From assembly GCA_017528425.1 (NCBI GenBank), contig JAFXOV010000003.1, positions 89,174-121,651 of the forward strand: 32,478 bases of DNA. Reading direction: 5' to 3'. The position numbers and the translations under genes were made by a program. Origin of the DNA: Elusimicrobiota bacterium (GTDB lineage Bacteria; Elusimicrobiota; Endomicrobiia; Endomicrobiales; Endomicrobiaceae). This document shows, one piece after another, positions 3,265-26,780 of the stretch. The first letter of the stretch is position 1, and each line of letters opens with the position of its first letter. The notes under the pieces are model-generated. The model worked only from the letters and a program-made list of their open reading frames with translations, searched no databases and was not told the DNA's origin.

Positions 3265-4110
3265 TTATACTTTATTTTCTAATTCTTGTTTTATGTCTTC
3301 GTATTTATTACCATAAGCATTATTTTTATAAAAAGCCAAAATATCTTTCTTTAAGAATTCAGATCTTATGTTTTGTAAAAGACAATATTCTTCAATTAAA
3401 GGTCTAAACTTATTTTCTTCATTTAAACAATTATAAAATAATAAAACCAATTCGTAAGGAGATAATGTTGCCCTTAAAATAGAAGTATATTGATATTTTT
3501 CATGTTTTATTTTTTTTATCTTTTCCTCTTTAATTTTATTTTTATCTTCTTCATCATCTAAACAAAAAGAGAAATCTGTTTCATTAACAAACTTTACAAT
3601 TCTATACATATGTCTAAAATAATGATCTAATATCTTTAATTCTGTACAACTAGCATATGCAGATACTATATTTTCTTTTGTAAAAGGTGGATAAAGAAAA
3701 AAAGGAACTAAAGCCTTTGTTAAAATATCATACAATTCTTTAAAAACTCTTATGCCTGCTCTATAACTATCACATCCTTCCATACCAATTTCAAGATTAT
3801 AAATTATTTTATCTTGAGTTCTTAACATATTAAAAAAAGTATTTTCAAACCTTTGTTTTGAAAGTTCTTTTCTTGTAGATTTTAGTTCTTCTTGTTGTAA
3901 ATTAAGGTCTTTTTTCTGTATAAATATAGTAATAATAACCAATATCAATGCTATTCCTGAAAAAAACGAATTTAACAAACCGGCACTATCATCTATTTCA
4001 TTTGGGCGATATGGAAGATTATAAGCATGATATATATTGCCAAAGCCAAAAATTACTAAAAATACAACAACAATAGCTAATAATAAGTATATTAATATCT
4101 TTTTTAACAT
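3265..4110 (-). CDS. Membrane-anchored putative phage abortive-infection protein (AbiC-like)
   Basis: The 281 residues begin with two membrane helices (about 4-26 and 45-65), then a charged coiled coil (66-88) leading into FENTFFNML (88-96). Downstream are LDHYFRHMYRIVKFV (161-175) and ILRATLSPYELVLLFYNCLN (211-230). This arrangement (two helices, a QxxEL coiled coil, FENTFF, then a late LS..EL.LLFYN block) is what I know of the putative phage abortive-infection family (putAbiC, Pfam PF16872). Members are thought to trigger dormancy or death of infected cells, with a mechanism largely unknown. It is the last gene of a three-gene block, 9 bp after the zinc-motif protein gene. Base composition is visibly AT-richer than the chaperone genes around it: in two sampled 60-base lines, 14 G+C at 3541-3600 against 22 at 6301-6360. 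The family call rests on remembered motifs, not a search. Confidence 0.72.
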   Translation of the reverse strand: MLKKILIYLLLAIVVVFLVIFGFGNIYHAYNLPYRPNEIDDSAGLLNSFFSGIALILVIITIFIQKKDLNLQQEELKSTRKELSKQRFENTFFNMLRTQDKIIYNLEIGMEGCDSYRAGIRVFKELYDILTKALVPFFLYPPFTKENIVSAYASCTELKILDHYFRHMYRIVKFVNETDFSFCLDDEEDKNKIKEEKIKKIKHEKYQYTSILRATLSPYELVLLFYNCLNEENKFRPLIEEYCLLQNIRSEFLKKDILAFYKNNAYGNKYEDIKQELENKV

Positions 4111-11167: not shown

Positions 11168-12445
11168 TTAGTTAACAATTTTTGCCGTTATGAATATTGT
11201 AAGTTCATATCTTGTTTTATTCTTTGTTTCGCTCTTAAACAAATATCCCAATATAGGAATATCTCCCAATAACGGAACTTTATTTACCGTTGTATCTTCG
11301 GTTTCTCTTATTAAACCGCCGATAGCCGCCGTTTCACCGCTTCTTAACATCAAAGTGGTTGTTGACTTGCTGGTATTGATAACAGGAGTATTTTCTTCTC
11401 CTATTGTTTCACCGGTTCTGTAACTTTGCTCCGGCGATATTGATAACACTATTGAACCGTCTCTGTTTATCTGAGGTTTTACTTTCAATTTTATACCGGC
11501 ATCTTTAAATGCCATTGTTCCTGTTGTATATCCTTCAGGAGAAGTTGTTTTACTTTCCAAATAAGGAATTTCTTCAACAATATCAATTGAAGCTTCTTGG
11601 TTATTCAAAACAAGAAGTTTAGGATTTGATAACACTTTTGCATCTTTATCTTCAATACCGGCTTCAAATGTTGCATTAATACTCCAATCATCGCCTTCAA
11701 GAATAGAAACACCTACTCTTGCAAATGATTTTGTTAAACCTAATCCCATAACCGAACCAACCGGAGTATCATAAACAAAATTTTTGTTATTCATAACGGA
11801 CGGATCAACCGTAGGATTAACCAAACCGTCTCTGTAAGTTTCATTCCATCTCGTACCTATTGCTGTTCCGTGAGATAAGTTTATATCAACGATTTTAGCT
11901 TCAAGCAAAACTTGTTGTGTAGGAACATCCAACGATCTTATAAGACCTTCCATTTTATCCAAACTATCTGCCAAATCGGTTATAATCAAAGAGTTTGTTC
12001 TTTCATCGGAAACAATTTTTCCGCCTTTAGACAATCTGGTAGACAAAATCTTTTCCAAATCCGCCGCCTTTGCATAATTACAGAAAACTACTCTGGAAAC
12101 CGTAATATGGCTTCCGTCGGCTTTACTTTTGATAACGTAGATATTCGCATCACCCTGTTTAACATAATACAAATCGTAAGTATCAAGCAAAGCGTTAAGT
12201 GCTTCTTCCGCGGTAACATCCTGCAACGACAACATTATCTTTTTTTGATACAACGTCGTGTCGGATATCAATTTCATACCGGTTTTCATACTTAAAACAT
12301 TCAAAACCGTATACAAAGATGTTCCCTGAAAGTCGATAGAAATTAAATTTGTAGAATGTAATCCGCCACCTTCTCCTTCAGGCGCCGAATAAGAAGTCGT
12401 AAACAATAAAGAAACAGCAAGGACTGTCAATAAAATTTTTTTCAT
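11168..12445 (-). CDS. Secretin (PilQ/GspD-like outer-membrane channel)
   Basis: Forms the outer-membrane ring through which a pilus or substrates pass. The 425 residues comprise a signal peptide (1-20), an STN-type domain (about 30-105, starting LISIDFQGTSLYTVLNVLS), an N1-type ring domain (about 115-175, with DERTNSLIITD), and the C-terminal secretin domain (about 175-425: VLLEAKIVDI, VLSNPKLLVLNNQEASI, and GGLIRETEDTTVNKVPLLGD followed by IPILGYLF). It is short for a secretin, having one N1 repeat only and no AMIN domain. Neighbours PilM/N/O point to the PilQ type. It is the only secretin seen here, with two different pilus systems nearby. Confidence 0.93.
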   Translation of the reverse strand: MKKILLTVLAVSLLFTTSYSAPEGEGGGLHSTNLISIDFQGTSLYTVLNVLSMKTGMKLISDTTLYQKKIMLSLQDVTAEEALNALLDTYDLYYVKQGDANIYVIKSKADGSHITVSRVVFCNYAKAADLEKILSTRLSKGGKIVSDERTNSLIITDLADSLDKMEGLIRSLDVPTQQVLLEAKIVDINLSHGTAIGTRWNETYRDGLVNPTVDPSVMNNKNFVYDTPVGSVMGLGLTKSFARVGVSILEGDDWSINATFEAGIEDKDAKVLSNPKLLVLNNQEASIDIVEEIPYLESKTTSPEGYTTGTMAFKDAGIKLKVKPQINRDGSIVLSISPEQSYRTGETIGEENTPVINTSKSTTTLMLRSGETAAIGGLIRETEDTTVNKVPLLGDIPILGYLFKSETKNKTRYELTIFITAKIVN

Positions 12446-12457
12446 TTTTTCTCCTTT

Positions 12458-13363
12458 TTAATTCTCCATTTTTATTGTAAATATAGTACCACTTGTATTA
12501 ACTTTTATGTTGTTTACATTTATTTGCACAATCTTGGAACCGTTGTAAACATCACCGACATAATAAAACTTACCTTCTATAATAACCATAGGTTTTTGTT
12601 TTTCATACATTATACCGTCTATAACGATTGTCGGTTTCGTAACTGCTACAGGAGCCGTACTTCTAACTTTTTTCTCTTGAACATAGAAATAAAAAGGTGT
12701 TTCGGGTATCGGTTCAAAATCTCTCCAAGTCTGTATATAACCTACTTCTTTCACTTTACCGAATATTTTATCGGAAATTTCTTTAAAATATCCGGCTTTT
12801 CTAACATCATCATCTATAAAATCAATAGTATTTCTTCCGCTAAAGCTGTCATTTACTTCGGTAGAAAATAATATCGGTGTTATTTTCATCTCAATCTTGT
12901 TTTCATAATCCATTGTAAAAGATAAAACTTTTGAATATCTTTCCAACTCAAACAAAAACTTACAAATTTTTTGATAAGTCGTCTTTAATTTTAATGTTAT
13001 TTCCACGGTATTATCTTTGTTTTCCTGAACAACATCATCTTCTTTTACCGAAATTTCCGTTTCTTTCAAAAGATCTAAAATTCTTACTTTATATGCATTA
13101 ACATTTTGTTCGTTGGAATAAAAAGTATCTTTATAAATAGCAAACATTTCCGACAAAGAATCTTTTAACTCATCCATCTTAATTTGTATACTGCCAAAAT
13201 CATCTATTTGTGTGCTTATGTTATTAAATCTTTCATAAACAGCTTTTCTGTCGTTACATTCCTTTTTGGCCTTAACATAAACAAAATCATATACAAAATA
13301 TGCAACTACTAATGAAACTACCAAATTTAATATAAAAATCAAAGCTCTCTTATTCTGGTTCAT
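12458..13363 (-). CDS. pilO: PilO-like inner-membrane protein with PilP-like C-terminal domain
   Basis: Part of the alignment subcomplex joining the inner-membrane platform to the secretin. The 301 residues show a single N-terminal membrane helix (about 7-27), a coiled coil (30-75), a ferredoxin-like periplasmic domain typical of PilO (about 75-185, VEITLKLKTTYQKICKFLFE), a linker (about 205-235) and a C-terminal beta-rich stretch (IVIDGIMYEKQKPMVIIEGK, then FYYVGDVYNGSKIVQINVNN) resembling the homology region of PilP/GspC that docks on the secretin. No separate pilP gene is present, so the two functions appear merged. The gene lies 12 bp before the secretin. PilO is probable by position and topology; the PilP part is inferred from pattern. 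Confidence 0.75.
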   Translation of the reverse strand: MNQNKRALIFILNLVVSLVVAYFVYDFVYVKAKKECNDRKAVYERFNNISTQIDDFGSIQIKMDELKDSLSEMFAIYKDTFYSNEQNVNAYKVRILDLLKETEISVKEDDVVQENKDNTVEITLKLKTTYQKICKFLFELERYSKVLSFTMDYENKIEMKITPILFSTEVNDSFSGRNTIDFIDDDVRKAGYFKEISDKIFGKVKEVGYIQTWRDFEPIPETPFYFYVQEKKVRSTAPVAVTKPTIVIDGIMYEKQKPMVIIEGKFYYVGDVYNGSKIVQINVNNIKVNTSGTIFTIKMEN

Positions 13364-13384
13364 AAATTATATCCTAATAATGCC

Positions 13385-13963
13385 CTATTTCTTTTCCTTT
13401 ATTTCCGCTTTTATCTTCATGATGCCCAATTCTTTGCTATGTATTTTCTGTCTTTCCATTGTTTCTATCAACATTTTATTTTTAATATATTCGCTCTTTT
13501 CAAAAGAAGAACTTAAAACAGGGGCATAATCATAAAAACTTGTCATTTTTTTCAATTTATCCCTATTTACAAACAACTCTAAATTAGCGGTATTCGCTTC
13601 CATTGAAAGTTTGGTTATAGCATCATAGTCCGGCAAATATGTGCCGAAATCTTTTAATACGGAACCGTAAGTCGTACTTTCTTTCAATTGTTCCTTAACA
13701 GCCATTATCTTATAATAGCAATTTTCCCACTCTTTTTCTATTTCTACAATTTGACTTGCAGACCTTTTGTTCTCAATATTATTTTTTGCCTGTGCTATTT
13801 TTGAGTTATAAGTACCTGTTTCAACACCCTTCAATATAGCAAACAAAATAATTAAAACTATAAGTACATGTACCAAAAAGTTTGCAAGCTTTATTACTCT
13901 TACAAGAACATTACTATATTTCTCTTTTGTAATAACACCTTCAATATAATTAAAACTATACAT
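13385..13963 (-). CDS. pilN: PilN-like pilus assembly protein
   Basis: A 192-residue single-pass protein: a short cytoplasmic N-terminus starting MYSFNYIEGVI (in known PilN proteins this end binds PilM), a membrane helix (about 25-48, VLVRVIKLANFLVHVLIVLI), then a periplasmic coiled coil and small domain. The longest frame starts with TTG at 13984, but AGGAG lies 10 bases before the ATG at 13963, so I chose that. It then overlaps the pilM stop by 8 bases, as expected for coupled expression. Sequence similarity to PilN is weak and the call leans on the PilM-N-O-Q order. Confidence 0.78.
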   Translation of the reverse strand: MYSFNYIEGVITKEKYSNVLVRVIKLANFLVHVLIVLIILFAILKGVETGTYNSKIAQAKNNIENKRSASQIVEIEKEWENCYYKIMAVKEQLKESTTYGSVLKDFGTYLPDYDAITKLSMEANTANLELFVNRDKLKKMTSFYDYAPVLSSSFEKSEYIKNKMLIETMERQKIHSKELGIMKIKAEIKEKK

Positions 13964-14963
13964 TTGCTTTTTTCTCCTTTTCAAGAGCTAAGCCGAGAGC
14001 AACAGGTAAAAAAAAGCCTTGCGGTTTATTGATATAACCGACAAATTTATTATTATCCAACGGGTTCCATTTTTCCGTAGGTATTCCCAATGTATCTTGA
14101 ATAAAGTTATCTATTCCTTCCGTCATAGCCCCTCCGCCTGTAAGAACAATTCTGTCAACGGAAACAATAAATTGTCTTGTTATACAATGTTCTATGGTTC
14201 TAAATAAAGTTTCTATTAAAACAGCAACATTTTTTTTCAAAACATTTTTCATATTGAAATTAATGTTTTGTCTTAAATCGTCCCTTCTTTTCAGTTCTTC
14301 CGACAATCTTTCCGGAATTGAAAAGAAAGCTGAAATATCTCTGGTTATATCCTGCCCGCCGAAATCTATATCTTTAATAAAAACCAAATCTTTACTGTTT
14401 AAAACTATAACATTGGAAACGCTATATCCTATATTTATTAAAATTATATTTTCATTATTTTTGTATTTAGGACCAAATTCAATAAAAGCATTCGCAAGTG
14501 CAAAATCTTCCAATGTAACACCGGCAACGGAAAGCGTCTCCACCGTATTTATAAAAGAAAATTTTGCATTAACCTTTTCCATCGGTGCTGCGGAAAAAAT
14601 GACGTTGTATTCTTTATCGGAATCATTTTTCATTATTGCAAAAGAAGTGTACATTTTACCCAAATCTTCAGGAATACTGTTTAAAGCCTCATTGTTAATC
14701 TGTTCCTTCAGGCTGATAGCATTATTTCTTTTCAAAGTCAAATCTCTGTTGATTATATCTTTACCGCCAACAGCCAAATAAGCCGAATCATTCAAACAAG
14801 CCATTTTTTTTAGTACGGCTGAAAGTTTATCGGCTCTTTCTATTTCTGTAGATTTTGATATATCTATTACCGCAGAAATTATCGAATATTCATTTGTTTT
14901 CTTTTCTAAATTTAAAATTTTACAAATCTTTACAAACTTGCCACCCAAATCTATGCCTATCAA
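13956..14963 (-). CDS. pilM: PilM-like actin-fold pilus assembly ATPase
   Basis: Cytoplasmic actin-like ATPase that binds the PilN N-terminus and couples the assembly ATPase to the inner-membrane complex. The N-terminus IGIDLGGKFVKICKI is the phosphate-1 motif of the PilM/FtsA fold; later motifs are IILINIGYSVSNVIVL (phosphate 2) and VDRIVLTGGGAMTEGIDNFI (adenosine motif). The longest frame would start with GTG at 14975, but GGAGGAG precedes a TTG at 14963 that overlaps the previous gene's TGA as TTGA, so 14963 (335 residues) is the better start. It keeps all three nucleotide motifs. Confidence 0.92.
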   Translation of the reverse strand: MIGIDLGGKFVKICKILNLEKKTNEYSIISAVIDISKSTEIERADKLSAVLKKMACLNDSAYLAVGGKDIINRDLTLKRNNAISLKEQINNEALNSIPEDLGKMYTSFAIMKNDSDKEYNVIFSAAPMEKVNAKFSFINTVETLSVAGVTLEDFALANAFIEFGPKYKNNENIILINIGYSVSNVIVLNSKDLVFIKDIDFGGQDITRDISAFFSIPERLSEELKRRDDLRQNINFNMKNVLKKNVAVLIETLFRTIEHCITRQFIVSVDRIVLTGGGAMTEGIDNFIQDTLGIPTEKWNPLDNNKFVGYINKPQGFFLPVALGLALEKEKKANV

Positions 14964-15784
14964 GATCTCCTCCACCCGATTAAGTATCTTTTGTTTGTAT
15001 AATAAGTTCCGGAAGATCCCGACGTTTCTCCCGATGTAGCTCCTTTTCCTAAAGATGGCACAAATAAAAATTTATCAGATACAGACTTATCAAGTTTTTT
15101 TGCTGCATATCCGTAAGGATCAGCAGCACCTCCCGATGCGGTTCTCCTGGTTTCAAAGTAATATGTTACCGTTGAAATCACTAAAGTACCGCCTGCAACA
15201 CCTATGGTTGTGGAAGCAACACCAACAAGTTTATATGTTTGAACTTCACTACCGGCCACAGGATCAAATTTTTTAGGCCAAACATCACCATCATCATCAT
15301 AATCTTCTAAAAATTCACAATAAACATTAGCGTACACTCTGGGATAACTATTATCAACCGGAGTATGTTTATTAACAGCACCATATTCGGCATCTACACG
15401 ATAATTTGGATCTGTTGGCTGACTTGCCGCAGTTTCATTAAAAAGTTCCCAATGATTATCGGGACTTTTAGAAACCGCTGTATATAAATATCCTGCATAA
15501 TGTCCTGCATATTTATCACCTAAATCACCATAAGCATCATCACCATTTGGACTCGGCTCCATATTCTTCTCCACAACATAATCGATATAACCTCTTGCTC
15601 GTTCTACTATTCCTTCAGCATAATAATCCGTTTTCATTTTTGCCTGATCATAAGCATCTATAACATTTTGTTTAGACAACATCTTTAATGTTACATACCC
15701 GATAATGGTTAGTATCATCATCGATACAATAGTAATGACAAGAATTCCGCCTTTATTGTTTTTTATAATAGGATTAGAAATCAT
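14960..15784 (-). CDS. GspK/PilX-like minor pseudopilin
   Basis: 274 residues, with a prepilin-type N-terminus: a short basic leader (MISNPIIKNNKG) followed by a hydrophobic helix (GILVITIVSMMILTIIGYVT). The residue at +5 is not Glu, which is characteristic of GspK-class tip pseudopilins and PilX and distinguishes it from the three preceding genes. The large C-terminal domain is rich in Tyr, Asp, Gly and Ser, with an acidic YDDDGD patch, and is likely extracytoplasmic. It overlaps the preceding pseudopilin gene by 11 bases and pilM by 4. Together with the GspI- and GspJ-like neighbours it would form the tip complex that primes fibre assembly. Confidence 0.8.
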   Translation of the reverse strand: MISNPIIKNNKGGILVITIVSMMILTIIGYVTLKMLSKQNVIDAYDQAKMKTDYYAEGIVERARGYIDYVVEKNMEPSPNGDDAYGDLGDKYAGHYAGYLYTAVSKSPDNHWELFNETAASQPTDPNYRVDAEYGAVNKHTPVDNSYPRVYANVYCEFLEDYDDDGDVWPKKFDPVAGSEVQTYKLVGVASTTIGVAGGTLVISTVTYYFETRRTASGGAADPYGYAAKKLDKSVSDKFLFVPSLGKGATSGETSGSSGTYYTNKRYLIGWRRS

Positions 15785-16418
15785 CTTTACCTATACTCCT
15801 TATCGTAAAACAGAACGATTTGTTTTTTCTTTTCATAACTTTAGACGAATCGTCGTCATAAACGATACCGAATGTTATATTCATTAAGTTATCTTCCGTA
15901 CCTGTACCTGTGATTCTGTTTTTTCTATAATAACAAGCTCTAACATTTCTTAACAACAATATATCTGTTCCCTCACCGGTTCCTTCTTTTTCCACATTCA
16001 ACATTAAATTGGTACCAGGTGACAAAGTTTTTATATTTTCGGGACGAGTATCATAATTATTACTTACATCCTTTTTAAACTGGGCATTATTTGAAAAATA
16101 ATAAGTATCTTTAACCCAACCCTTAACCGAATCAAATCTTCTAACTACAAGACGTCTGTCGCTACTAATAAACTCAATAGGTTTATTATAGCTGGTATGA
16201 TTATAAACATCGTTCCAACGAGCACTGGCTATGGATCTTCTCATTGCTTCTTCAAAAAATCTTGTATTATTAAGATTATATGAAGTTCTATGTAATCCCG
16301 AAAACATTTTATATGAGGTCGTCATCATTGTGTATGAAAAAAACACAATAATGGCTGACAACATTAATGACACCACCAATTCTATTAAAGTAAAGGCTTT
16401 TTCATTGTTAAAAATCAT
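15774..16418 (-). CDS. GspJ/PilW-like minor pseudopilin
   Basis: 214 residues starting MIFNNEKAFTLIELVVSLML: a class III leader ending in Ala rather than the usual Gly before Phe, with the Glu at +5 retained, then a membrane helix and a beta-rich globular domain. Ala at -1 is tolerated by some prepilin peptidases. The longest frame begins with TTG at 16439, but the ATG at 16418 falls 2 bases after the previous stop and leaves a normal short leader, so I use it. Size fits GspJ/PilW. It is part of the minor pseudopilin run between the major-type pilin and pilM. Confidence 0.82.
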   Translation of the reverse strand: MIFNNEKAFTLIELVVSLMLSAIIVFFSYTMMTTSYKMFSGLHRTSYNLNNTRFFEEAMRRSIASARWNDVYNHTSYNKPIEFISSDRRLVVRRFDSVKGWVKDTYYFSNNAQFKKDVSNNYDTRPENIKTLSPGTNLMLNVEKEGTGEGTDILLLRNVRACYYRKNRITGTGTEDNLMNITFGIVYDDDSSKVMKRKNKSFCFTIRSIGKDDF

Positions 16419-16420
16419 TG

Positions 16421-16930
16421 TTATGACGCCCTCTCCCAAACATTAGCAACATAAGTTACCACTTCTATTTTATTTTTAAAACCGGATCCTTTCGGCCACT
16501 CCGCCTTAAATACCATTTTTGTACTGCCGTAAAACCTTTCTGTGATGGCGCCGGTATTAGGATAAGCATTCTCGTATGCCGTATAAGAATAAACTACCGT
16601 ACAACCTGTTCTAAGTTGCTCTTCTTTTTTAAAACCAAAATTTGCAGCATTCGTACCGTTGATTCCGTAAGGATAATCATATTTTTTTCTCGTTCTATAT
16701 CTTGTGTCAAAATTAGTATTATCCGTTTGATAAACGGAAGCTTTAGCTATTTCTATTCTGTTTATCAAGCCTTGCAGAATTGAATTATATTCTTCACTAT
16801 CCGTAGCAAATCTGTAGGAAGAAGAAAAAAACGACAATCCGTACATACTTACAATGCCGATAATTATAACGGAGACCAAAACTTCCACTATGGTCGTCCC
16901 CTTACTTTTTTTGAACTTAAAAAATTTCAT
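16421..16930 (-). CDS. GspI/PilV-like minor pseudopilin
   Basis: 169 residues; leader MKFFKFKKSKG, then TTIVEVLVSVIIIGIVSMYG with Glu at +5, the type IV prepilin pattern, followed by a globular domain of unrecognised detail. In-frame alternatives lie upstream (TTG 16954, ATG 16948), but the ATG at 16930 follows the upstream stop by 1 base and gives a leader of normal length. Ribosome binding sites here are weak, so the start is not certain. Size and position suit GspI/PilV, which pairs with GspJ and GspK in the tip complex. Confidence 0.8.
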   Translation of the reverse strand: MKFFKFKKSKGTTIVEVLVSVIIIGIVSMYGLSFFSSSYRFATDSEEYNSILQGLINRIEIAKASVYQTDNTNFDTRYRTRKKYDYPYGINGTNAANFGFKKEEQLRTGCTVVYSYTAYENAYPNTGAITERFYGSTKMVFKAEWPKGSGFKNKIEVVTYVANVWERAS

Positions 16931-16931
16931 A

Positions 16932-17363
16932 CTAAAAAATTTCTTCATATTCAAGGTTTCCGGTCTCCAAATTATATTTTCCTACAACACTAACTCCAGA
17001 TAAATCTTCAATATCTTTTACAGCAAAAGTTCTTACCGTCAAAGCAACAGCAGATGAACCTGTCGCAGCCGCGCCTGAAACAACCGTAAAAAACTTAAAA
17101 TATTTATTTTGAGAAGAATCAATTTGCAATTCCTTAGCAGAAGACACTTTGTTATATTCTCCCGTCAAATAAAAATCCGAGTTTCTAACAAAATGCATTT
17201 TCTCTTGTGCAACAATTTTTTCGATAAATGCTCTTGCTTCGGTAGCCATCGCAATTTTAACATGTCCTTTACCGGAATAAAAACCTACCACAGCCAAAAT
17301 GGCAATTATAACAACAACAATCATAACTTCTATAAAAGTAAAGCCTTTTATGTTTGATTTCAT
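16932..17363 (-). CDS. Type IV prepilin / GspG-like major pseudopilin
   Basis: Structural subunit of the pilus or pseudopilus. The 143 residues begin MKSNIKG, then FTFIEVMIVVVIIAILAVVG: a 7-residue leader with Gly-Phe cleavage site, Glu at +5 and the long hydrophobic helix typical of type IV pilins. The globular part is small (about 110 residues). The longest frame starts at 17387 inside the preceding gene, but AAGGTGA at proper spacing supports the ATG at 17363. First pilin after the platform gene, hence most likely the major subunit. Confidence 0.9.
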   Translation of the reverse strand: MKSNIKGFTFIEVMIVVVIIAILAVVGFYSGKGHVKIAMATEARAFIEKIVAQEKMHFVRNSDFYLTGEYNKVSSAKELQIDSSQNKYFKFFTVVSGAAATGSSAVALTVRTFAVKDIEDLSGVSVVGKYNLETGNLEYEEIF

Positions 17364-17379
17364 AAAAATTTCACCTTTT

Positions 17380-18615
17380 TTAAACATTTTGGTTCACCAT
17401 AGCATTAGCCATATTAAATATCGGCAGATATAATGCTATAACACATATACCCACCATAAAACCCAAACCTACAATAAGTACCGGCTCAATAATAGCGCTT
17501 ATACTAGCAACTGCAGCATCCACTTCGTCTTGATAATAGTCGGTAATTTTCAAGAACATATCTTCCATTTGACCGGTTTTTTCACCTACTGCCGTCATTC
17601 TTACAACCATCTTAGGAAAAAGTTCAAACTTATCCATTTCGGTAGAAAAGAAACTTCCTCCTACAATAGCGGTTCTTATCTTTTCTAAAATCGATCTCAA
17701 GTATGTATTGTTTACCGTATTTGATGCTATTTGTATGGAAGAAACAATATCAACACCGCTCTTTATAAGTGTAGATAATGTCTGGAAAAAATTGGCAAAA
17801 ACCATTTTTGTATATATAGGAGAAAACCTTGGAACTTTAAAATACAACTTATGCCATTGCCTTAAGCCTTCCGGATTTTTGGTCCATATTCTAAACGCTA
17901 TATAAAGCAATATACAAAAGCCAATGATATATGGCATTCTTCCAATTATAAAATGGCTAACATCTATAACTACCTGTGTCGGCCAAGGCAATGCCGCACC
18001 AAATGACGCAAACATATCTTCGAACTTAGGTATAAGTATAAAAACTATACCGCAAAAAACAATTACAAAGAAAATACCTACGAACATAGGATACGATGCA
18101 GCCGCTTTAATTTTTCTTCTTAACTTTACCGAATTTTCAATATGGGTAGCCAAATCCGCCAAAACTTTAGCCAATTTACCGGATTTTTCACCTACCGCAA
18201 TCATGGATACAAAAGTGTTATCGAATATTTTCGGATATTTGGCAAGAGAATCGGAAAAGTTTGCGCCGCCTCTAACATCTTCGGCAATTTTTAACAATAC
18301 ACTGCTGAAATATGCATTTTGAACCATAACAGCAACATCGGATACTGCTTCCAAGACATTAACACCTGCATTAACCAACGTAGATAATTGTCTTGAAACT
18401 ATAGCCAACTCAGATAAAGAAACTTTTGTTTTTGAGGTACCCTTTCTTAACTTTGCATCCAAATCGGCAAAAAAACCGCCGCCTTGAGATAACGATATTT
18501 GAGTAAAACCTTTCATCCTTAATTCTGCCATGGCAGCATTTTCCGAAGGTGCATTAACAGAACCGGAAACTTTCATTCCTATAGAATTATGAGCACTATA
18601 CTTAAAACTTGGCAT
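17380..18615 (-). CDS. pilC: Inner-membrane platform protein PilC/GspF
   Basis: Polytopic inner-membrane platform that works with the assembly ATPase to extrude pilins. The 411 residues contain two T2SSF domains (about 75-200 and 277-400), each with the conserved pattern seen as MIAVGEKSGKLAKVLADLA and MTAVGEKTGQMEDMFLKI, and membrane helices around 172-195, 220-245 and 375-400. Length is standard. It starts 21 bp after pilB. Confidence 0.96.
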   Translation of the reverse strand: MPSFKYSAHNSIGMKVSGSVNAPSENAAMAELRMKGFTQISLSQGGGFFADLDAKLRKGTSKTKVSLSELAIVSRQLSTLVNAGVNVLEAVSDVAVMVQNAYFSSVLLKIAEDVRGGANFSDSLAKYPKIFDNTFVSMIAVGEKSGKLAKVLADLATHIENSVKLRRKIKAAASYPMFVGIFFVIVFCGIVFILIPKFEDMFASFGAALPWPTQVVIDVSHFIIGRMPYIIGFCILLYIAFRIWTKNPEGLRQWHKLYFKVPRFSPIYTKMVFANFFQTLSTLIKSGVDIVSSIQIASNTVNNTYLRSILEKIRTAIVGGSFFSTEMDKFELFPKMVVRMTAVGEKTGQMEDMFLKITDYYQDEVDAAVASISAIIEPVLIVGLGFMVGICVIALYLPIFNMANAMVNQNV

Positions 18616-18636
18616 ACTCTTTATTATACCTCACTA

Positions 18637-20322
18637 TTATTTATCGGCCATACTTACATTAAATACTTCTTCTACCGTTGTTCTTCCTTCCAACAACTTT
18701 GCAATAGCGGCTTTTCTCAATGAAACGATACCCTGTTTTGCCGCCAATTCTCTCAGCTCAACATCGGTAGCGCCTCTTGCTATTGCATCTTTCAAATCTT
18801 TTGTAATTCTTAACATTTCAAAAATAGCTGTTCTGCCTTTATATCCCGTATTATCGCAAAATTTACAACCTTGTCCTTCATAAACTTTATTGGACTTATC
18901 AAGTCCTAACTTATTATATATTTCATCCGAAAGAGTAATTTCTTTTTTACAATTCGGGCAAATCGTTCTAACCAATCTTTGTGCTATAATCAAATTCAAA
19001 GCATCTGCCATAAGGTAAGATTCTACACCCATAAACGCCATTCTCGAGATAGTACTTACGGTATCGTTAGTATGCAAAGTCGAAAACACAAGATGTCCCG
19101 TCAATGCAGCCTGAATTGCTATTTGGGCTGTTTCGGTATCTCTGATTTCTCCTACGAGTATAACATCAGGGTCTTGTCTCATGAATGTTCTTAAAATTCT
19201 TGCAAAGTCCAAACCGATATCCGTTCTGACATGACACTGGTTAATACCCTTCAATTCGTATTCAACAGGGTCTTCCGCGGTCATAATATTTATATCCGCA
19301 GTATTAATATGCCCCAAAGCCGAATAAAGAGTGGTCGTTTTACCGCTTGATGTAGGTCCCGTAACAAGTATCATTCCGTAAGGAGCGGTAATTGCTTCTT
19401 TAAAGAACGTTAATTCCTGAGGGCTGAAACCGACTCTTTCTATATCCAAGCCGAAAACATTTTTTGCAAGAACTCTCAGTACTATCTTTTCGCCCCATAT
19501 AGTCGGTATTATCGAGACTCTTATATCAATCTTCTGATCGGAAATTTTTATTCTGCATTTACCGTCTTGCGGCAATCTTCTTTCCGATATATCAAGGTCT
19601 GACATAATTTTAATTCTGGAAACGATAGCGGGATAATATTTTTTGGAAGGAGCCGGCATTTGTTGTAAAATACCATCGATTCTCATTCTCAAATAAATTT
19701 CTTTTTCAAAAGGCTCCAAATGAATATCACTGGCTTTCTTTGTTATAGCATCAAAAAATATTGAATTCACATACTTGATAACAGGAGCAGATTCCGTATC
19801 ATCGATATCATCCGTCAATTCTTCTTCTTCATCTTCCGCTTCCTGAACATCATGTTCACCTATTTCCTTGCTCAAAGAACTTCTGACATAAAACTTTTCT
19901 ATGTAATACAAAATATCTTTTTCCGAAGCTAAAACTACAGAGAGTCTTTTTCCCGTAATTCTTGAAAGTTCATCTTTATAAACAACATTTGCGGGATCCG
20001 ACATTGCAATAACAAGAAGTTCTCCGTTAATTTCCAAAGGAACCGCCATATATTTTCTTGCTATTTTTTCTTGAATTATATCAACAATTTTTTGCTCTAC
20101 TTCAATTCCGGACAAGTCGCGATATTCGACTCCCAAAGTTATGGACAGACATTCAAACAATTGAGCTTCGGTAACATAATTTTTTTCTAAAAGAACAGCT
20201 CCTATCTTTTTTTTCTTTTCCAAAGACTCTTTTAAACATTCGGCCAGCTGATCTTTTGTTACATATTGCTTACTTAAAAGGACTTCCCCCAGATACTTTT
20301 TCTTTAAAACTTCCAATACCAT
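18637..20322 (-). CDS. pilB: Pilus/secretion assembly ATPase PilB/GspE
   Basis: Hexameric cytoplasmic ATPase powering fibre assembly. The 561 residues show an N-terminal MshEN-type domain (about 8-145), a linker rich in Glu/Asp (155-178), the second N-domain (180-290), then the motor: Walker A GPTSSGKT (322-329), an Asp box (TAEDPVEYEL), Walker B DPDVILVGEIRD (384-395) and a His box (LVFSTLHTND). A tetracysteine zinc motif (Cys455, 458, 486, 489) is intact. AAGGAG precedes the ATG. The MshEN domain commonly binds cyclic di-GMP, so second-messenger control is possible. First gene of the operon. Confidence 0.97.
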   Translation of the reverse strand: MVLEVLKKKYLGEVLLSKQYVTKDQLAECLKESLEKKKKIGAVLLEKNYVTEAQLFECLSITLGVEYRDLSGIEVEQKIVDIIQEKIARKYMAVPLEINGELLVIAMSDPANVVYKDELSRITGKRLSVVLASEKDILYYIEKFYVRSSLSKEIGEHDVQEAEDEEEELTDDIDDTESAPVIKYVNSIFFDAITKKASDIHLEPFEKEIYLRMRIDGILQQMPAPSKKYYPAIVSRIKIMSDLDISERRLPQDGKCRIKISDQKIDIRVSIIPTIWGEKIVLRVLAKNVFGLDIERVGFSPQELTFFKEAITAPYGMILVTGPTSSGKTTTLYSALGHINTADINIMTAEDPVEYELKGINQCHVRTDIGLDFARILRTFMRQDPDVILVGEIRDTETAQIAIQAALTGHLVFSTLHTNDTVSTISRMAFMGVESYLMADALNLIIAQRLVRTICPNCKKEITLSDEIYNKLGLDKSNKVYEGQGCKFCDNTGYKGRTAIFEMLRITKDLKDAIARGATDVELRELAAKQGIVSLRKAAIAKLLEGRTTVEEVFNVSMADK

Positions 20323-21696: not shown

Positions 21697-22581
21697 CTAG
21701 AAAAGTGTTCCCGATTTAAAAAATGATATAACAAACGGTGCAAACAACAAAATAAAAATGGTCGGCAATATCAAAATTGTCATAGGTAGCAACATTTTTA
21801 CCGGCGCTTCATGTGCTTTTTTTTCGGCTATTGCAACATTATCATCGGAAATTTGTTTGGATATTTTATTTAAACTGTCGGCAAACCCTGTTCCCGTTTC
21901 CAAAGACATCGTTATTGTTTTAACAAAAGTATCCAACTGAACTATGTTATACTTTTCAGCCATTTCTTCAAAAGCTGTTTTTATATTAACACCTAATGAC
22001 ATTTTTTTTATGATATTTTTCAGTTCTTTTATCAAACAACCATCCAAAATCGTTATTATTTTATTTAACGAACCGTTAAAGTCAATTCCGGATGAAAGCA
22101 TTACAGCCAGCAGACTTGAAACGTCCGGTATTTGTTTTACTATTTCGTTAATTGTTTTGTTGTATTGTTCGTATATTTTCAAATACGGCAATATCAAAAA
22201 CAAAAGGCCGAAACAAAACATAAATAAAATATCAAAACCGAAAATAAATATTGATATAAAACACCCTACAAGCATAGACAGTATCTGTATAAAAACAAAC
22301 GTGTACGGATTTATTTTTATATCACTTAAATCAAAAACATTTAACATTTTATCTGTTTTATCAATATAATCAATAAAAATTTTTAATCTGATAAATTTTA
22401 ATACATGTGAAAACGTATTCAAAAACTTTACTAAATAGAAAAAGAATATATTTCTTCTCGTATCAATGCTTCCGTAAAAATTACGCTTCGCATAAAAACT
22501 CGACATAACGGTACTAATCAGCATATACAGTATGAAGAATAAAAGTGATAATAAAATAAAAGTCAGTATTAAATATATCAT
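21697..22581 (-). CDS. tadC: Tad platform protein TadC (T2SSF family)
   Basis: 294 residues, one of two inner-membrane platform proteins of the Tad/Flp pilus. Membrane helices lie at the N-terminus (IYLILTFILLSLLFFILYML), mid-protein and C-terminus, surrounding a T2SSF domain with VSSLLAVMLSSGIDFNGSL and TFVKTITMSLETGTGFADSL. A longer frame begins at 22641, but the ATG at 22581 overlaps the tadB stop as ATGA, the same coupling seen between other genes here, so I take it as the start. Confidence 0.9.
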   Translation of the reverse strand: MIYLILTFILLSLLFFILYMLISTVMSSFYAKRNFYGSIDTRRNIFFFYLVKFLNTFSHVLKFIRLKIFIDYIDKTDKMLNVFDLSDIKINPYTFVFIQILSMLVGCFISIFIFGFDILFMFCFGLLFLILPYLKIYEQYNKTINEIVKQIPDVSSLLAVMLSSGIDFNGSLNKIITILDGCLIKELKNIIKKMSLGVNIKTAFEEMAEKYNIVQLDTFVKTITMSLETGTGFADSLNKISKQISDDNVAIAEKKAHEAPVKMLLPMTILILPTIFILLFAPFVISFFKSGTLF

Positions 22582-23375
22582 AATTTTATGTCCGCAATTT
22601 TTTTCATAATAAACGATCCGGAAAGTATCATAATCACACAAACAAGTAATATCACATTACCGAACAAAGATGTAAATAAAACAGATACTGTTTCAGGTTC
22701 AACTAAATAAATCAAAAAGACTATCAAAAACGGAATTATGCTTATAACCATTCCGGAAAAACGAACTTGTGAAGTAAGAACATCCACTTTCGTTGTTAAA
22801 GAAAGTTTTTGTGCAACCATAACTTCTATTTTTGAAAGGAGATCCGATATTTTTATTCCGGTGGAATACGATAATCGTAACGAATCCATAAAAAATTTAT
22901 ACTGTTCGTTTTGAACCTTTAATACGGAATCTTTTAAAGCTTCATCTAAACTTATACCCAACTTAATTTTATCGGATACTTCTTTAAACTCCGAAGCTAA
23001 CGGCTCTTTTATTTGTTCGGATATTGAATCTATAGCTTGAACAATATTTTCTCCCGAAGAAACCGAACTTCTAAACAACCTTATTATTTCCAAGATTTGT
23101 TTGTCTATCTCTTTTTTATATTTTTGTTTTTTGTTTTCCAAAAACAACCATAAATAATATATCAATACAATTGTTACTATTATTGCATATATTACATTGA
23201 AAACTATTGATATCAAAAGAAATAAAATTACAACAAACAAAAAATTTATTTTGTTCTTATTGCGTTTCTTGTTTTTTATATTTGTCTTTTGTTCTTTAAA
23301 AACAAAACAGGCATAAAAAACAAGCAAAAAAAATGATATCAAAAAAAGTAATAACCAAACATTATTTAATGTCAT
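22578..23375 (-). CDS. tadB: Tad platform protein TadB (T2SSF family)
   Basis: 265 residues; pairs with TadC in the inner membrane to receive the CpaF/TadA ATPase. Two N-terminal membrane segments (about 5-25 and 44-80), a T2SSF domain (FRSSVSSGENIVQAIDSISE, then LRLSYSTGIKISDLLSKIE) and C-terminal helices (PFLIVFLIYLVEP, VILLVCVIMILSGSFI). It overlaps both the upstream ATPase gene and tadC by 4 bases (ATGA). Confidence 0.9.
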   Translation of the reverse strand: MTLNNVWLLLFLISFFLLVFYACFVFKEQKTNIKNKKRNKNKINFLFVVILFLLISIVFNVIYAIIVTIVLIYYLWLFLENKKQKYKKEIDKQILEIIRLFRSSVSSGENIVQAIDSISEQIKEPLASEFKEVSDKIKLGISLDEALKDSVLKVQNEQYKFFMDSLRLSYSTGIKISDLLSKIEVMVAQKLSLTTKVDVLTSQVRFSGMVISIIPFLIVFLIYLVEPETVSVLFTSLFGNVILLVCVIMILSGSFIMKKIADIKL

Positions 23376-25264
23376 ATTTTTTTCACAAAGTTTTTCCGTG
23401 TTTGGTCATATACAAACACGGGAACCAAGTTATATTTACTGTTTTCGGATTTTTGTAAAAAAGAAATTTCCGATATTTTTCTTGAACCGTCGGAAAATCT
23501 TTTTATTTGAATTATAATATCTATTGCGGATACTATCATTGAAATTATTGATTTTTCGGGCAACTCAAAACCTGCCATTAAACACATAACAACAAGTCTT
23601 GATATTGCATCCGAACAAGAATTGGAATGAACGGTAGTCATCGAACCGCTATGACCGGTATTCATTGCCTGTAACATATCCAAGGTTTCCCCCGCCCTGC
23701 ATTCCCCCACTATAATTCTGTCCGGTCTCATTCTAAGAGAATTTATAACAAGTTGTCTTATTGTAATTTCCGAAGATCCTTCCAAAGATTTAGGTCTTGA
23801 TTCCAGTCTTACAACATGTTCTTGTTGCAACTGAAGTTCGGCGGAATCTTCTATTGTCACGATTCTTTCTTGTGATCCGATAAAAGAAGAAATAATATTC
23901 AGCAATGTTGTTTTACCCGAACCTGTTCCTCCGGAAATCAAGATATTTTTCTTGCTTGAAACGGCAGTTTCCAAAAAGTTCAACATTTCCTCATTCAATG
24001 AACCGTAATTAATAAGTTCCCGACCGGAAAGTTTATGTTTTGCAAACTTTCTTATTGTTAATACAGGTCCTTCCAATGATATAGGCGAAATAACAACATT
24101 TACTCTTGAACCGTCTTTTAATCTTGCATCAACTATCGGCGAAGATTCGTCAATATGTCTGCCTATCGGAGCAACTATTCTGTTAATAACGGTTTTTAAT
24201 TTTTCAACGTTTGTAAACTTTATATCCGTTTTTTCCACTTTACCGTTTTTTTCAATATAAATATTGTTGCAACCGTTTACCATTATTTCCGTAACGCTTT
24301 CATCCGACAACAAATCTTCAAGTATACCAAGCCCGACTATATCATCAATCAGTTCTTTAGAAATTTTATCTTGTATAGATACACCGACTTTTATTCCGTA
24401 CACAGAAAGAAGCTCTTGAATTTTAACTTTAATTATATTCGATAACACGTTTTTATCTTGTTCATTCGAATACTCTTTCATTTTCTCAACTAAATCTTTA
24501 TGCAACCTTTCTTTCAACAAGATATATTTGTTTGAATCCGGCAATATTTCATCCATAACAACATTATTTACTCTGCCACAAGAAATCTCGTCTGCAATCT
24601 TTTTTATTCCTGTAACAAAATCGTTATTGGCATCGTTAAACATAAAATTTTTACTTATGACTGCCTCTTCAATTTTAGAATCAAAATTTATAATTATTGA
24701 ATTCTTCGGAATAAAATTTTCTTCCTGTTCGTCTATGTTAAAATCAATATCTCTCTTAAATATTACAGGCAAAACAATTACATCTTTAATTTTATTAATT
24801 ATAATGTTCGAATATATTTTTTGATAATTTGATAATGCTACAGGTTCTTTCTCAAAAGGACACAATATTATATCCGATACATGCATAAAATCGAAAATAT
24901 ACTTACTTTTATCACAAACAATAAAAACATTATCGTAAATTTCCGATAAAGAATTTATTATAAAATTGAAATTTTCTTCCGATATCTTTGTTATATCTTT
25001 TACACATATAACATCATTGTTCGTATCGAAATAAGATTTCAACATTGACATATTAACATTTACTACAACATTTAAAATATCGTCCAAATATTTTATGTTC
25101 TTCTTACCGTAATAAGACCAAATTATATTACTGTTTTGTCTTACATCTATGGTTATATTTTTCTTGCCGGCATAAGAATTTACTGTCAATAAACCTCTTA
25201 TTAAAGAATTTGTATACAAAGAATTATCTGTTTGTAAAATTGATATTATTTTGGATTTTTTCAT
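23372..25264 (-). CDS. Tad ATPase CpaF/TadA with CpaE/TadZ-like N-terminal domain
   Basis: Motor ATPase of the Tad pilus, 630 residues, well over the 400-500 usual for CpaF. Residues about 235-630 are a complete CpaF: N-terminal bundle, LGILEDLLSDESVTEIMVNG (312-331), Walker A GGTGSGKT (445-452), IEDSAELQLQ, RPDRIIVGECRAGE (513-526) and GHSGSMTTVHS. Residues 1-230 have alternating hydrophobic strands and helices in the manner of the MinD/CpaE fold (DNVFIVCDKS at 111-120 where MinD-type proteins have the second nucleotide motif; KKIADEI near 221-227), but no Walker A lysine motif. I read this as a degenerate CpaE/TadZ localisation domain fused to the ATPase. It overlaps cpaB and tadB by 4 bases each. 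CpaF is certain; the fused domain is an inference. Confidence 0.93.
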   Translation of the reverse strand: MKKSKIISILQTDNSLYTNSLIRGLLTVNSYAGKKNITIDVRQNSNIIWSYYGKKNIKYLDDILNVVVNVNMSMLKSYFDTNNDVICVKDITKISEENFNFIINSLSEIYDNVFIVCDKSKYIFDFMHVSDIILCPFEKEPVALSNYQKIYSNIIINKIKDVIVLPVIFKRDIDFNIDEQEENFIPKNSIIINFDSKIEEAVISKNFMFNDANNDFVTGIKKIADEISCGRVNNVVMDEILPDSNKYILLKERLHKDLVEKMKEYSNEQDKNVLSNIIKVKIQELLSVYGIKVGVSIQDKISKELIDDIVGLGILEDLLSDESVTEIMVNGCNNIYIEKNGKVEKTDIKFTNVEKLKTVINRIVAPIGRHIDESSPIVDARLKDGSRVNVVISPISLEGPVLTIRKFAKHKLSGRELINYGSLNEEMLNFLETAVSSKKNILISGGTGSGKTTLLNIISSFIGSQERIVTIEDSAELQLQQEHVVRLESRPKSLEGSSEITIRQLVINSLRMRPDRIIVGECRAGETLDMLQAMNTGHSGSMTTVHSNSCSDAISRLVVMCLMAGFELPEKSIISMIVSAIDIIIQIKRFSDGSRKISEISFLQKSENSKYNLVPVFVYDQTRKNFVKKI

Positions 25265-26097
25265 TGTTTTTGAGAATATTTATTTATTATTTCGTTTAAT
25301 TCTTTTTGCCTTTTTTGAAATTCGGAATTTGTTTGTTTTACGGATTGTGCTTTTGTATTTGCAACTGCATTTTCACAAATATCGTTTATTTTAATTATTT
25401 TATTTTGCTGAATTTTATCGTCGGATGCAGCTCTCAAAACAATTTTCAATATTCCTTTCTCTTGTGCTAAAACTATTTTTTGCGCTTCTTCCATGGAAAC
25501 AGCCACCGTTACGGGAATATTAACGGAAACAGTCATTTCATCCTCGGTTTTTTTCGCGGAACCTATAATATCGTTACCGACCGCCAACACCAAAAGATTT
25601 TGTGCGACAACACAAGCTGCTTCTTCTAATCTTTGATTCTTATTTTCATATTCTATAATAGATATCAAATCAACTTTGCTTCCGGAAGTAATTATTCCGT
25701 TTACTTCCTGATTGTTAAAAAGTATGGTTATTGCTTTTTTGTTATCCGGTATTGTGTTTGCCAAACCGAATCCGGATATTACGGAAGACATTTTGGATGA
25801 AGTTATTTGCTCCCCTTCTTCAAAAGGAACTATGGATATATATGCAGGATTTCCGTCAATATAAAAATCTTTTATTTCCGATATGTAGTTAGGTTGAGCA
25901 TACTGTTTCGGAACTATTTTTTGTTTTATCATCGAATCCGTTATAATTTGTCCCTGTTCTATTCTTTGATTTGCAACAACAACCGCTACTTTTTCGGACA
26001 TACTTTTATTTTGCTGTCCGACATCGTATAAATATAAAGTCGCAAACATTGCGGAAAACAATGCCAATACGACTATCAATATAATATTCTTTTTCAT
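25261..26097 (-). CDS. cpaB: Pilus assembly protein CpaB/RcpC
   Basis: 278 residues. Signal-anchor helix (4-26), then an SAF domain (about 38-105, VAVVVANQRIEQGQIITDSM) and an RcpC-type domain (about 120-220, KAITILFNNQEVNGIITSGS; VNIPVTVAVSMEEAQKIVLA). In other Tad systems CpaB/RcpC sits in the periplasm next to the secretin and may bind peptidoglycan. The C-terminus is Lys/Gln-rich. The stop overlaps the next ATG as ATGA; the gene starts 1 bp after the Flp pilin stop. Confidence 0.92.
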   Translation of the reverse strand: MKKNIILIVVLALFSAMFATLYLYDVGQQNKSMSEKVAVVVANQRIEQGQIITDSMIKQKIVPKQYAQPNYISEIKDFYIDGNPAYISIVPFEEGEQITSSKMSSVISGFGLANTIPDNKKAITILFNNQEVNGIITSGSKVDLISIIEYENKNQRLEEAACVVAQNLLVLAVGNDIIGSAKKTEDEMTVSVNIPVTVAVSMEEAQKIVLAQEKGILKIVLRAASDDKIQQNKIIKINDICENAVANTKAQSVKQTNSEFQKRQKELNEIINKYSQKQ

Positions 26098-26098
26098 T

Positions 26099-26260
26099 TT
26101 ATTTTACGTTAGCTTCGGTGGATATTTTTTGTGTTGAATCTTGGAACATATTGTTTACTTTACCGCCGAACATTTTTACACCTGCAATCACAACAATAAC
26201 AACCAAAACAATTATAAGAATATACTCTACCATTCCCTGACCTTTATTGTTTCTTAACAT
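26099..26260 (-). CDS. flp: Flp-type pilin
   Basis: Major subunit of the Tad pilus. 53 residues: leader MLRNNKG, then QGMVEYILIIVLVVIVVIAG with Glu at +5 and Tyr at +6, the Flp signature, and a short polar tail (mature length about 46). A frame extends upstream to 26323, but GGGGGA before the ATG at 26260 and the short leader decide the start. Only one flp gene is present. Confidence 0.92.
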   Translation of the reverse strand: MLRNNKGQGMVEYILIIVLVVIVVIAGVKMFGGKVNNMFQDSTQKISTEANVK

Positions 26261-26279: not shown

Positions 26280-26780
26280 TTATTTTCTTTTATGTATTTT
26301 ATTTTTACAACCGCTGCCCGCAAGAACAGACAACTTTGTTTTTATTATAAATTCTTCCATACCTACAACATTCATTATTTTCGGCAAGTCATAAGAATAT
26401 GATATCGACACCGTAGACAACTCATTTGAAGGTATAAACAACCCCTGAACAAAATTTGAAATATTCGATAAATCCGTTATATTGTAGTCAATACCTTTAT
26501 AATCTTTAATATCTACCGTTATATCTTTTATTTTATCGACATCCAATCTTCTGCCTTCTATCATTTTGTTGGTCAAATAATTTTTGATGTCTTTTTCTAT
26601 ATCATCGCGAGATAAATTAGTATTTGCTATCATATCTGTCCCATATCTTGTTGCGGAAACTAATTGTTGCCATGTTAAAAGAACTCTTCCAAACCAAACA
26701 ACAGAAAAAATTAAGACAATTATTACGGGAAATATAAAAATGGCTTCCGTAAAAGCTTGCCCTTTTTTATTCTTAAACAT
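26280..26780 (-). CDS. tadE: TadE-like pseudopilin
   Basis: 166 residues. Leader MFKNKKG, then QAFTEAIFIFPVIIVLIFSV with Glu at +5, the TadE family N-terminus; the remainder is a small periplasmic domain ending in Lys/Arg-rich residues. TadE is a minor pilin-like protein needed for Flp pilus formation in other bacteria. It begins 5 bases after the serS stop and no good ribosome binding site is visible, so it is probably translated by coupling to serS. Confidence 0.86.
   Translation of the reverse strand: MFKNKKGQAFTEAIFIFPVIIVLIFSVVWFGRVLLTWQQLVSATRYGTDMIANTNLSRDDIEKDIKNYLTNKMIEGRRLDVDKIKDITVDIKDYKGIDYNITDLSNISNFVQGLFIPSNELSTVSISYSYDLPKIMNVVGMEEFIIKTKLSVLAGSGCKNKIHKRK

Follow-up and report, generated by a model that had tools for sequence, protein, structure and literature searches.

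We propose that the Tad pilus motor of this Elusimicrobiota genome is probably a CpaE-CpaF fusion, in which a CpaE-derived pseudo-ATPase has been built into the CpaF motor as a collar. In these gut bacteria, the part concerned with placing the pilus has lost its ATP-binding site and seems to have become a fixed structural element of the motor, where it no longer resembles an independent ATP switch.

The fused gene and its Tad cluster

The fused gene lies in the window, that is, the whole stretch of 32,478 nucleotides analysed here. We regard it as the motor gene of a Tad pilus since its neighbours encode CpaB, a Flp-type pilin, a TadE-like protein, TadB and TadC (Table 1).

Table 1. Features of the fused gene and of its Tad cluster, in window coordinates
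Feature	Position	Strand	Basis
CpaE-CpaF fused gene, 630 aa, ATG start	23372-25264	(-)	ORF listing
CpaE-derived (MinD/ParA-fold) N-terminal domain (predicted), residues 1-230	24575..25264	(-)	hhalign, AF2 model
Position of former P-loop (Walker A), residues 11-19, QTDNSLYTN	25208..25234	(-)	column alignment with SKGGVGQT / PKEGVGKT relatives
Conserved family-specific stretch, residues 49-64 (W49, Y52, K58, Y59), directly past D40, former switch I	25073..25120	(-)	column conservation
Domain-to-motor linker, residues 231-251	24512..24574	(-)	column-based lengths
CpaF/TadA motor, residues 252-630	23375..24511; stop codon 23372-23374	(-)	PF00437, TIGR03819
Motor Walker A, intact (GGTGSGKT), residues 445-452	23909..23932	(-)	sequence
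CpaB/RcpC, 4-base overlap with fused gene	25261..26097	(-)	TIGR03177, 121 bits, cut-off 71
Flp-type pilin, 53 aa from internal ATG, GQGMVEYILIIVLVVIVVI	26099..26260	(-)	ORF listing; family assigned by eye
TadE-like pseudopilin	26280..26780	(-)	PF07811, 36.2 bits, cut-off 22.9
TadB (T2SSF), 4-base overlap with fused gene	22578..23375	(-)	PF00482, E 2.7e-15
TadC (T2SSF)	21697..22641	(-)	PF00482, E 8.4e-14

Like CpaF/TadA, the protein combines a T2SSE core (residues 312-588; PF00437, E 6.5e-62) and an intact Walker A, a motif seen in all CpaF rows displayed, with a position between CpaB and TadB/TadC. It differs from CpaF/TadA in having about 230 extra N-terminal residues of apparent CpaE origin, and in its match to TIGR03819 (TadA), the nearest NCBIfam model to the motor, which falls below the curated cut-off of 373.15 (E 3.6e-92, 309.2 bits); the remaining curated NCBIfam models shown for the motor are likewise below their cut-offs. 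By the measure used to compare CpaF rows, the CpaF core begins at residue 291 here, against residues 56-119 in most of the compared relatives that have a standalone CpaE. The N-terminus is therefore some 170-235 residues longer, in agreement with the preliminary description, which had put the ATPase about 200 residues over its usual length.

The same description had noted the absence of a separate cpaE/tadZ gene, and indeed there is none among the ORFs of the cluster. Extending the search to the whole source genome (a draft of 64 contigs and 2.08 Mb, rated 100% complete) with AAA_31 returned no cpaE. The matches over the cut-off are Mrp, a Wzc-like kinase, and a Soj that lies next to ParB. We also searched 76 genomes of the family with a profile specific to CpaE; in this genome it again gave these three proteins and nothing CpaE-like. 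TadZ_N (PF16968) is also absent from the genome, a result that carries no weight because this model misses its cut-off even in Caulobacter. In the Elusimicrobiota loci examined, all ORFs that match the N-terminal domain (51/51) are CpaF ORFs too.

The main Tad cluster of the window lacks a secretin. Elsewhere in the same genome (contig C58, 838-2223, locus L191), a very short secretin of 242 aa is followed by a pseudopilin-like ORF. The Tad system may be divided between these two loci and use a minimal secretin.

Descent and distribution of the N-terminal domain

Residues 1-230 have no credible match in Pfam or NCBIfam, so it took family profiles to bring out their likeness to MinD. We built a profile of 31 N-terminal domains from the family of the window's protein (f1) and compared it with the ATPase domains of 35 standalone CpaE proteins of other phyla; hhalign aligned the two over 235 columns with a probability of 95.6 and E 1.1e-8. 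The f1 profile matched the order-level fused domains with E 1e-15 and the Walker-retaining fused domains with E 1.3e-10, compared with E 0.25-0.34 for the reversed f1 profile and E 0.093-0.85 for 20 column-shuffled profiles. Pfam places four distant members among the intermediates over its cut-offs for ParA, AAA_31 and CbiA, and a fifth for CbiA alone; it matched neither the two f1 rows nor the one order-level row that were scanned. A profile of 12 intermediates matches 37 PDB sequences, the best being 3ea0, a ParA family ATPase (E 5e-32), followed by MinD. These comparisons trace the N-terminal domain back to the CpaE/TadZ ATPase domain.

The structural prediction matches a MinD/ParA (SIMIBI) fold. 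An AF2 model of the domain reached a pLDDT of 83.9 with a 40-row alignment (the window's protein, its relative L033, 12 fused and 26 standalone CpaE domains), and so leans on the CpaE rows. Structural comparison of this model with VIA gave MinD 1hyq (Z 20.4), 3ea0 (Z 20.1) and Soj (Z 19.8), and Foldseek also lists 3fkq (E 4.4e-6), a two-domain protein of E. rectale that we take to be TadZ. The MinD/CpaE-like fold that had been suggested for the first 230 residues is accordingly what both hhalign and the alignment-dependent model return; the predicted fold is of MinD type, and an intact cpaE was found nowhere else in the genome. With MinD, Soj/ParA and FlhG/FleN, which are active deviant Walker A ATPases, the domain shares the predicted fold (Z 18-20), but these proteins are not fused to a secretion motor. 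CpaE/TadZ itself is closer, with the MinD/ParA fold, homology across the whole ATPase domain and a neighbourhood beside CpaF in common; the fused domain differs in lacking the receiver and the P-loop and in being covalently joined to CpaF.

The preliminary description had suggested a fusion in this one gene, and our survey of domain architectures found the CpaE-CpaF fusion phylum-wide in Elusimicrobiota and recurring in further phyla, often with an intact Walker A. Among the matches listed for 294 Elusimicrobiota genomes, all but two (506 and 337 aa) lie in frames of at least 590 aa. We rejected a tally of 238/294 genomes as carriers of the fusion, since its weak hits, in f1 and f8 among other groups, are probably ParA. 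Outside Elusimicrobiota, we analysed 83 CpaF rows from 80 loci, the best 80 of at least 587, three of which gave two CpaF rows each. The domain is in-frame in 19 rows and a separate ORF of the locus in 39 (that of L072 being ParA); the other 25 have neither, although one of them, L033, is truly a fused relative of f1, scored in this way because the profiles used there miss its eroded domain. Thirteen of the 19 in-frame rows score above 60 bits and come from Bdellovibrionota, Omnitrophota, a delta-proteobacterial bin, Acidobacteriota and WOR-3. The remaining six (L053, L087, L090, L096, L100 and L104; 10.8-44.4 bits) were not accepted as firm fusions on account of their weak scores. Five of these, L096 and L100 from Bacillota and L087, L090 and L104 from Eremiobacterota, are possible independent and shorter CpaE-CpaF fusions, in some of which the P-loop lysine is lost.

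Many of the 25 CpaF rows with neither arrangement (for example L037, L043, L047 and L048) carry, by eye, an N-terminal FHA-like stretch, with no CpaE ORF in the locus. From their sequences, this looks like a second way for CpaF to carry an accessory domain. KilF of Myxococcus xanthus, as described in the available part of its report, is likewise a CpaF with an N-terminal accessory domain, which is FHA and not MinD-type (PMC8460266). In some reduced genomes of genus g8, within the family to which the window belongs, the fused gene was not found or was present only as stop-containing fragments (G032, G056), which suggests that these bacteria have lost the Tad pilus.

ATP site, linker and selection

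The N-terminal domain had been described as having lost Walker A, and the alignment bears this out. The former P-loop of the window's protein reads QTDNSLYTN, and both Walker lysines are missing from all 31 f1 rows, in which the three glycine positions of the loop retain a single glycine in a single row. Neither the deviant Walker A KGGxGK[ST] nor its lysine-poor form KGGxGx[ST], seen in many TadZ proteins, is present in f1 (0/31 rows), and the entropy of the former P-loop columns is at the domain average. We infer that the N-terminal domain is a pseudo-ATPase; nucleotide binding without a P-loop could still be conceivable.

The fused relatives, counted after excluding eleven loci from genomes already represented, occupy intermediate states. 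Both lysines and the key glycines are kept in 39/41 deep Elusimicrobiota fused rows (PKEGVGKT type). Families f10, f12 and f15 (KGG[VC]GQT) retain the signature lysine in 5/5 rows and the P-loop lysine in 0/5, while f7, f9 and a relative retain them in 2/5 and 1/5, respectively; the order-level families f2-f6 have remnants such as TKEGLSR, IKEGINQ and VKEGLYQ, with the P-loop lysine in 0/7. The loss of a single lysine is ordinary, as standalone CpaE proteins of other taxa keep the P-loop lysine in only 13/35 cases and the signature lysine in 28/35. What is distinctive in f1, judging from these alignments, is that the loop eroded in its entirety once the fusion had taken place.

In a CpaF-core tree, built without L005 (identical to L033), the groups branch towards f1 in the order of Walker loss, with modest support for several forks. 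Four deep Elusimicrobiota rows stand apart in the free tree, grouped with a WOR-3 row. A single clade of all 50 Elusimicrobiota fused cores is compatible with the data in an AU test run after the removal of seven long-branch rows, a result that is not proof of such a clade (p 0.686). On sequence grounds, the fusion predates the loss of the ATP site, and the loss was stepwise. The preliminary description had also held that a fusion would make ATP-dependent positioning impossible. This part is not supported: fused proteins of Bdellovibrionota, Omnitrophota and deep Elusimicrobiota retain both Walker lysines, so fusion alone is compatible with the use of ATP. These proteins resemble that of the window in domain order and in the absent receiver; they differ in keeping Walker A (KGGVGKS/T or PKEGVGKT) and, where measured in deep Elusimicrobiota, in having a longer linker.

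The linker, too, changes along the Walker-loss series. It measures 54-64 residues in the Walker-retaining families f13 and f16 (n=4), 54-61 in the GQT group (n=4), 47-53 in f7, f9 and a relative (n=4), 28-45 in f2-f6 (n=7), and 22-27 in 30/31 rows of f1, with 43 in the remaining row. By these aligned lengths, the linker shortened as the Walker motif was lost, both trends belonging to one lineage and not being independent events. The receiver is missing from the clear fusions. In the window's protein the domain match takes in the chain from its first residue, leaving no receiver-like N-terminal domain, and in fused forms with a clear match it begins within the first 19 residues, where there is no room for a receiver; three weak rows begin later. 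Pfam Response_reg was found in 6/7 standalone CpaE proteins scanned and in 0/3 fused ones.

The N-terminal domain is under purifying selection in all nine pairs compared. Its dN/dS lies at 0.08-0.27 and that of the motor at 0.03-0.16, synonymous change being near saturation in some pairs. The ratio of the two values ranges from 0.8 to 2.6, and the domain has the higher one in 8/9 pairs, so its constraint is weaker than that on the motor. Within f1, D40, W49 and K58 are invariant (31/31), and Y52 and Y59 are kept in 30/31 rows. Alignment to MinD-type proteins places residues 49-64 at the former switch I, following what we take to be the switch I numbering of those proteins.

A different reading of these data is that the domain was left without a role after the fusion and now does no more than provide the motor with a folded spacer or a stabilising domain. 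Its faster evolution, the average conservation of the P-loop columns and the absent or broken genes in some reduced genomes of one genus would suit such a remnant. We consider it unlikely, however, given the low dN/dS, the near absence of length change in these pairs, and three columns that do not vary in any row.

Proposed role of the N-terminal domain in the motor

In the available portion of the Tad literature, CpaE/TadZ is described as a protein in its own right, one whose Walker A is atypical (PMC6668835, PMC13170226, PMC11300603). Tad systems have already been noted in Elusimicrobia, and the accessible text of that study does not mention the fusion architecture (PMC6668835). We found no report of a CpaE-CpaF fusion in the literature searched, a partial set with most subscription papers outside it. 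According to the part of the report available, an in situ model from Caulobacter (2026) surrounds a single CpaF hexamer with six CpaE dimers, a 2:1 ratio, with receiver domains that likely link the CpaE dimers and with predicted CpaE-CpaF contacts (PMC13170226). A hexameric CpaF motor serves both extension and retraction, as far as the available text describes it (PMC11300603).

With both domains on one chain, the ratio of localisation factor to motor is 1:1, as the preliminary description had anticipated. By homology, a CpaF hexamer would deliver six fused N-terminal domains as a ring on the motor, with no need for ATP-driven dimerisation or receiver-mediated ring building. The removal of both needs would explain the absence of the receiver from the fusions and, in one lineage, the erosion of the ATP site. 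The domain would then form a permanent collar by which the motor docks onto the membrane platform or onto a partner protein, with the contact made by the W49-K58 surface where switch I used to be; pilus positioning, if retained, would depend on contact with the collar and not on an ATP cycle of the N-terminal domain. Ring and docking role are both carried over from the Caulobacter model, which belongs to another phylum, and we infer them by analogy. More tentatively, and with slightly less than even confidence, we suggest that Elusimicrobiota made the Tad localisation ATPase a built-in part of the motor: the fusion came first and the receiver disappeared, and the ATP site was then dismantled stepwise as the tether became shorter. 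The outcome would be a rigid pseudo-ATPase collar that has gained a new binding surface, and pilus placement without the MinD-type CpaE cycle.

The role of ATP in CpaE/TadZ function during Tad pilus assembly is unsettled. A series within one phylum and one gene, from an ATP-competent fused CpaE to a P-loop-free form, separates the structural role of CpaE from the nucleotide switch; if a collar without an ATP site suffices here, it is the structural role that has been conserved. That evolution joined the two chains also lends independent support to CpaE sitting on CpaF.

Rather improbably, in our estimate, the N-terminal domain might still act as a switch. It would then bind nucleotide by some unusual means, or else pair with an intact cellular ATPase of the ParA/MinD type, such as Soj, that supplies the ATP step. 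MinD-type proteins dimerise via the face that bears switch I, the genome encodes a canonical Soj, and the fold is kept in the alignment-dependent model. Such a switch would nonetheless have to work without either Walker lysine in 31/31 rows, and with one glycine in one row across three P-loop positions.

We give very little credence to the view that the N-terminal domain is unrelated to CpaE and merely shares a general alpha/beta pattern. An HMM of f1 alone matched no chain among PDB sequences at E values up to 10, in line with the empty family-only searches of Pfam and NCBIfam, and AF2 given two rows (the window's protein and one close relative) failed, with a pLDDT of 36.5. Against this, the profile matches to CpaE and to the order-level domains, the latter at the equivalent gene position, far exceed controls of 0.09 or worse, and the intermediates match ParA/MinD models and structures. 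An assembly or gene-calling artefact, imaginable in a draft of 64 contigs, is next to impossible with a corresponding full-length frame in dozens of separate genomes. A CpaE-derived collar in the motor is the reading that we prefer.

Near the Tad cluster, the window contains genes for either a type IVa-like pilus or a type II secretion system (11168-20322; secretin, PilM, pseudopilins and PilC-/PilB-like proteins), and a UDP-sugar dehydrogenase gene sits between the two clusters. An ORF at 3265-4110, flanked by dnaK and dnaJ, matches PF16872 (E 2.4e-17), a domain putatively involved in abortive infection by phage.
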